This document shows positions 20,877-33,365 of a DNA stretch of 64,000 bases, piece by piece. The position numbers and the translations under genes were made by a program. Numbering within the stretch: position 1 is the stretch's first letter; each line of letters starts with the position of its first letter. Under the pieces are notes generated by a model. The model worked only from the letters and a program-made list of their open reading frames with translations. It had not been told where the DNA came from and did not search any database. The DNA lies in assembly GCF_001899075.1 (NCBI RefSeq), contig NZ_MKVA01000005.1:1139014-1203013 (forward strand). Direction: 5' to 3'. This stretch comes from Devosia sp. 67-54. Lineage in GTDB: Bacteria; Pseudomonadota; Alphaproteobacteria; Rhizobiales; Devosiaceae.

Positions 20877-20967
20877 TGGCGGAGAGGAAGGGATTCGAAC
20901 CCTCGAGACCCTTTAGAGGTCTGCGCCCTTAGCAGGGGCGTGCCTTCGACCACTCGGCCACCTCTCC
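20877..20967 (-). tRNA. tRNA-Ser (anticodon GCU)
   Basis: On the minus strand a complete class II tRNA is visible: acceptor stem GGAGAGG/CCTCTCC, D-arm with GCCGAGTGGTCGAAGGC, anticodon stem CGCCC/GGGCG closing the loop CTGCTAA (GCT, reading AGC/AGU), a long variable arm, and TTCGAATCC in the T-arm. The discriminator base is G and the 3' CCA is encoded in the genome. Confidence 0.95.
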
Positions 20968-32788: not shown

Positions 32789-33103
32789 TCAGGCGAAGAG
32801 CTTCAGCCCGGCGATGCCGCAGACGATCAGGCCGATGCAGCCGATGCGGATGGCGGTGGCGGGCTCGTGGAACAGCAGCATGCCCAGGATTGCGGCGCCC
32901 ACGGTGCCGATGCCGGTCCAGACGGCATAGGCGGTGCCGACCGGCAGGGTGCGCAGCGACAGCTCCAGCAGCACGACGCTCACGATCATGCCGACGATGG
33001 CGGCGGCCGACGGCCAGAGCCGGGTGAAGCCATCGGCGTATTTGAGGGCGATGGCCCAGACGATTTCGAACAGGCCGGCGACGGCGAGATAGACCCAAGC
33101 CAT
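32789..33103 (-). CDS. gdx: SMR-family guanidinium exporter (Gdx/SugE)
   Basis: 104 aa, four membrane helices, the exact size of the small multidrug resistance family. The key Glu is in [20 protein letters not shown] near residue 13, and the signature [12 protein letters not shown] with WTGIGTVGA marks the SugE/Gdx branch rather than EmrE. Gdx is a dual-topology homodimer that exports guanidinium in exchange for protons. The guanidine-II riboswitch directly upstream fits that substrate and gives the regulation. GGAG precedes ATG 33103. Confidence 0.93.
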
Positions 33104-33110
33104 GGGATTT

Positions 33111-33168
33111 CTCCGTGTGGCGGGCCGTCCCGACCGAAATTGAGATGCAGCGCGGGGTCGTCCCCGCG
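33111..33168 (-). promoter_or_regulatory. Guanidine-II (mini-ykkC) riboswitch with ribosome site
   Basis: On the minus strand are two hairpins, each with an ACGR loop, the hallmark of mini-ykkC: CGCGGGG-ACGA-CCCCGCG (33168-33151) and CGGG-ACGG-CCCG (33132-33121), separated by about 18 bases. The Shine-Dalgarno GGAG of gdx (33114-33111) lies just after the second hairpin. In this class, two guanidinium ions bind the paired loops and free the ribosome site. The downstream gene is the matching exporter, which strongly supports the call. Confidence 0.92.
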
Positions 33169-33206
33169 CCCGTCATTTAGGGCATGTCCGCCCCGAGGTG
33201 AAGCCC

Positions 33207-33365
33207 TCAGCCGCGGCGCGACAGATGCCGGAAGCGGCCGTGCTCGATCTCGCGCTGCCGGAGCTCGAGGTCGACCCGCGAGGTCGCCTGGTTGAGATAG
33301 TCGAGCTCCACGTCTTCGCGGCTGCGCCCACGCAGGGCGGCTTTCAAATTGCCGATCAGTCCCAT
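33207..33365 (-). CDS. DUF3563-like 52-aa protein
   Basis: Missed by the ORF track because of its length. ATG 33365 has AAGGAG eight bases upstream, and TGA is at 33207. The peptide begins MGLIGNLKAALRGRSRED and has the segment VELDYLNQATSRVDLELRQR, which fits the DUF3563 pattern (a short helix pair with YL-qA-d--DLE-r-R). Soluble and charged; role unknown. It is upstream of the riboswitch-gdx unit on the same strand. Confidence 0.72.
   Translation of the reverse strand: MGLIGNLKAALRGRSREDVELDYLNQATSRVDLELRQREIEHGRFRHLSRRG

Follow-up and report, generated by a model that had tools for sequence, protein, structure and literature searches.

The 5' leader of the gdx gene of Devosia sp. 67-54 contains a Guanidine-II riboswitch that almost certainly turns on production of a guanidinium exporter as the ion accumulates in the cell. 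The locus was analyzed within a 64,000-nucleotide stretch of genomic DNA (hereafter, the window), in which the aptamer, the ribosome site and gdx follow one another on the minus strand. This is an ordinary new example of a riboswitch-exporter pair that is already known, and the earlier note that proposed it was correct. The exporter thereby gains a probable substrate, guanidinium, where automatic annotation would say quaternary ammonium pump. Such a substrate assignment is routine by itself; the value of the locus lies in providing an entry point to further guanidine-responsive genes in the family.

Guanidine-II aptamer in the gdx leader

Two above-threshold matches were found in the window using Rfam 15, Guanidine-II (mini-ykkC, RF01068) and one tRNA. 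In cmscan, RF01068 matched positions 33169-33120 of the minus strand with 48.1 bits (curated cut-off, 32 bits) and an E-value of 1.9e-6 for the whole window scanned against all 4227 Rfam families. The alignment spans model positions 1-48 of 48, so that the covariance-model search suggested in the earlier note returned a full-length match. The tRNA gene, which has a long variable arm, is located at 20880-20967 on the minus strand.

The boundaries of both hairpins follow from the sequence, the RF01068 match and covariation. The P1 hairpin (33150..33169, minus strand), GCGCGGGG-ACGA-CCCCGCGC, has eight pairs and an ACGA tetraloop at 33161-33158. It is followed by a 16-nt linker containing TCTC (33134..33149, minus strand; defined by the sequence and the predicted fold) and by the P2 hairpin (33121..33132, minus strand), CGGG-ACGG-CCCG, with four pairs and an ACGG tetraloop at 33128-33125. 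The outermost P2 pair of the model, U33133-C33120, does not form here. P1 had been described as near-ideal for the class on the basis of its inner seven pairs, and this description holds; the proposed span, 33111-33168, covers the aptamer and the ribosome site and is short by one P1 base. Two ACGR-loop hairpins and a ribosome site adjoining the start of an SMR gene are thus all present. The linker length is inside the 7-40 nt range of the class (PMC7544219), and the downstream gene, gdx, is guanidine-related. The arrangement of two short ACGA/ACGG hairpins, a 16-nt linker and a downstream SMR exporter gene is the same as in Guanidine-II, with no class-defining difference.

Forty Guanidine-II copies from relatives were aligned to assess covariation. 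The ACG of both loops is invariant in all 40 copies, and 87.7% of pairs are standard. The covariation score is 0.469, compared with 0.150 for shuffled alignments and a maximum of 0.146 when partners are slid. Changes on both sides were seen in 10 of the 13 pairs (seven of eight in P1 and three of five in P2, where 94.5% of cells are paired), which constitutes compensatory change for RF01068. Folding energy is less informative: the fold of the GC-rich leader has only a modest stability advantage over shuffled sequence (z-score -1.56), as might be seen if two hairpins had arisen by chance and no riboswitch existed. Such a coincidence is extremely improbable given the E-value of the Rfam match and the equivalent placement of the switch ahead of gdx in many further genomes, and it is already contradicted by the strong covariation. 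We base the riboswitch call on the covariance-model score together with covariation in relatives; folding energy alone would have missed the aptamer.

Ribosome site and proposed control of its accessibility

The Shine-Dalgarno sequence GGAG (33111..33114, minus strand; assigned from the sequence and folds) starts 6 nt 3' of P2 and lies 7 nt 5' of the gdx ATG at 33103. For the class, published work shows that one guanidinium is bound per ACGR loop and that binding at the two loops promotes P1-P2 kissing and frees the Shine-Dalgarno sequence (PMC12186494; PMC7544219). By analogy, we infer that the copy in the window acts translationally: as guanidinium accumulates in the cell, one ion would bind each loop, the P1 and P2 loops would kiss, the ribosome site of gdx would become more accessible and gdx translation would rise. 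Gdx would then export guanidinium with the stoichiometry known for such transporters, one guanidinium for two protons (PMC9574504).

In the predicted folds, GGAG is mostly paired when ligand is absent, the candidate partners being the linker TCTC and the TCC(C) directly 5' of the ATG. Pairing between linker and ribosome site was considered as a general expression platform and dropped, since the 40 copies gave no signal: it is no better than with shuffled linkers (median p 0.62). Shuffling the linkers of gdx copies shortened their pyrimidine runs only marginally (p 0.048). The second candidate lies in the spacer AAATCCC, for which the folds allow pairing either to GGAG or to the GGGA of P2; a TCCC between ribosome site and ATG is where leaders of this genus depart from the class. 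It is present in each of the eight gdx leaders folded for this genus, and the stretch between GGAG and TCCC varies among them. At the end of the spacer, TCCC occurs in only two rows of a 34-row list of ORFs led by a ribosome site in the window; gdx itself is on this list, as are some duplicate and spurious ORFs. Because the eight leaders are related by descent, we regard the TCCC spacer as a lead and not a proof, and its role as a partner of the ribosome site as suggestive only. Folds of the same eight leaders did not separate ligand-free from ligand-bound states, because kissing loops are not modelled in thermodynamic folding.

The Gdx exporter

The gdx gene (32789..33103, minus strand) encodes a sugE-type SMR protein of 104 aa, a probable guanidinium/H+ antiporter judging from its family, structural and NCBIfam matches and its key residues. 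The product matches Pfam PF00893 (SMR) with 5.6e-31, and its closest solved structure is Gdx-Clo (PDB 6wk5, E 1.6e-33). Multidrug SMR proteins of the EmrE/Qac type share the PF00893 superfamily yet are much more distant (7.9e-13 for EmrE). The best NCBIfam model is SugE with 124.4 bits, and the next one scores 75.5; the 126-bit cut-off of the strict SugE equivalog NF008512 is missed by 1.6 bits, so that only the strict label is withheld. Residues E13, W16, S42, Y59 and W62, whose roles in the substrate site of Gdx-Clo have been described (PMC9574504), are all present, and each is shared by no fewer than 75 of 77 homologues. They include the central glutamate, the hydrogen-bond stack W16/S42/W62 and the switch tyrosine Y59 of the Gdx site. 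The 104-aa SMR type, these five residues and the GxG motif of TM3 are shared with Gdx-Clo and with SugE of E. coli. The earlier identification of a Gdx-type SMR is thus borne out. Besides its score just under the SugE cut-off, the protein differs from Gdx exporters in Glu47 (codon 32963-32965, minus strand), which is placed in a hydrophobic stretch at a position occupied by Gly, Ala, Ser or Thr, and never by Glu, in the 77 homologues; exporter activity is therefore not guaranteed.

A real aptamer would also be compatible with guanidinium serving as inducer only, while the SMR protein mainly exports quaternary ammonium or hydrophobic guanidinyl compounds. The closest NCBIfam model is indeed named quaternary ammonium efflux SugE (its cut-off being just missed), Gdx also transports guanidinyl compounds with hydrophobic substituents (PMC9574504), and it has been reported to confer quaternary ammonium tolerance (PMC12186494). 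We nevertheless consider this very unlikely, since the protein resembles Gdx-Clo far more closely than it does EmrE or Qac, keeps every residue of the hydrogen-bond stack of the Gdx site, and is under control of a guanidine switch, which argues for guanidinium. Export of guanidinium remains our preferred reading. Guanidinium had previously been called a firm substrate: the switch and the subtype strongly imply it, but "firm" is somewhat strong.

Probable guanidine response in the Devosia sp. 67-54 genome

The 4.2-Mb genome has a single Guanidine-II copy, the one at gdx, and no SMR gene other than gdx exceeds the family cut-off; a second SMR-like match is partial and falls under it. The DUF1989 protein is the usual partner of guanidine degradation. 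No DUF1989 gene was found in this genome, and in sister genomes such a gene sits behind Guanidine-II. With one switch, one SMR gene and no DUF1989 gene, the response looks export-only, and on the simplest reading the strain relies on guanidinium export, with no breakdown by the DUF1989 route. A search for PACE pumps gave no match in this genome, and the control genomes likewise gave no match, so this does not establish that the genome lacks them. Next to the riboswitch-exporter pair, a 52-aa ORF (33207-33365, minus strand) stops 37 nt upstream of the riboswitch; neither this ORF nor a 102-aa ORF at 32716-32411 on the minus strand matched any Pfam or NCBIfam family.

Guanidine-II at other gdx loci and across the family

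We analyzed 80 Gdx loci from named genomes. Guanidine-II is found upstream of gdx, on the same strand and approximately 17-81 nt away, at 32 of them, and Guanidine-I at one; no further Guanidine-II match was found elsewhere in these loci (~409 kb). Judging by record titles, nearly all of the 32 switch-bearing loci belong to Pseudomonadota. Because so many of the named loci share this placement of the switch, the association of Guanidine-II with gdx is general. Closer to the window, RF01068 is present in 14 of 19 genomes of the genus and Guanidine-II in 101 of 136 genomes of the family.

Genes located behind the switch were surveyed for 113 copies, mostly from Devosiaceae and a few from other families of the order, with some loci counted twice. 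The commonest class is a PACE/BTP efflux gene (38 copies), ahead of gdx (25), followed by genes for DUF1989 (16), ATP synthase subunit a (14 copies in 11 genomes), a ChaA-type antiporter (12) and an ACT-domain protein (2). Six rows were left unclassified: three precede a protein whose start resembles biotin carboxylase, two lie before the short ORF that at other loci leads to atpB, and one looks spurious. PACE (BTP) genes lie behind Guanidine-II at L015, L018-L021, L024-L026, L028, L117 (locus numbers are ours) and further loci, and these pumps may be exporters of guanidinium or guanidinyl compounds. At L029 and L030, from genus g6, a small ACT-domain protein (PF10000, PF13840) comes after Guanidine-II (~31 bits, just below cut-off).

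ChaA-type antiporters and an additional ATP synthase subunit a in sister genomes

In 11 genomes, Guanidine-II precedes a second atpB gene (L003, L008, L016, L112, L113, L142, L148, L151, L157, L164 and L169). A search of the whole family placed close second copies of subunit a (at least 207 bits) at the switch in exactly these genomes; three further second copies scored only 137-156 bits. The only other genome with two high-scoring copies, G092, has them with equal scores on one contig, and its second atpB may be an assembly artefact. All switch-linked subunit-a proteins form one clade (support 100/99). They keep the arginine of the VRLF motif, which we take to be the equivalent of the essential arginine of subunit a, and in all of them the conserved asparagine four residues later is replaced by valine. 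Downstream of the canonical atpB copies there is an atpE-like gene; no atpE-like ORF was found after the switch-linked copies examined. An ORF of 56-59 aa between switch and atpB was read in six of the 11 genomes.

Just upstream of the switch-atpB unit, nine of the 11 genomes have a ChaA-type gene preceded by a separate switch, two of these nine cases being judged from Rfam matches and the protein start only. ChaA-type exchangers with their own Guanidine-II were seen at L112, L113, L120, L121, L142, L148, L151, L157, L158, L165, L169, L187, L022, L118 and L115, often directly upstream of a riboswitch-atpB unit. The association of the switch with atpB, ChaA and PACE genes is well supported. In text searches of a library of open literature, we found no paper linking guanidine riboswitches with any of these three. 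These associations lie outside the window and are more surprising than the window's own pair; the subunit-a case is striking.

What this association means physiologically can be suggested only tentatively. The switch in the window might represent a guanidine regulon in its minimal form, limited to export, to which sister genomes add a spare subunit a, a ChaA-type antiporter and PACE pumps. Guanidinium might then be harmful to cation/proton balance or to the ATP synthase membrane sector, and cells might exchange subunit a as guanidinium rises; we consider this possible but doubtful as a whole. A duplicate subunit a and an antiporter that are guanidine-responsive would bear on the reason for the toxicity of guanidinium to bacteria.

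The Devosia sp. 67-54 genome has one atpB and no switch-atpB cluster. Its subunit a (L122, G000:C3:93545-94174) is strongly divergent within the genus (branch 0.66) and has SLRLWGN where the genus has SVRLFAN. The atpE-like gene behind this atpB encodes 79 aa, not 75.
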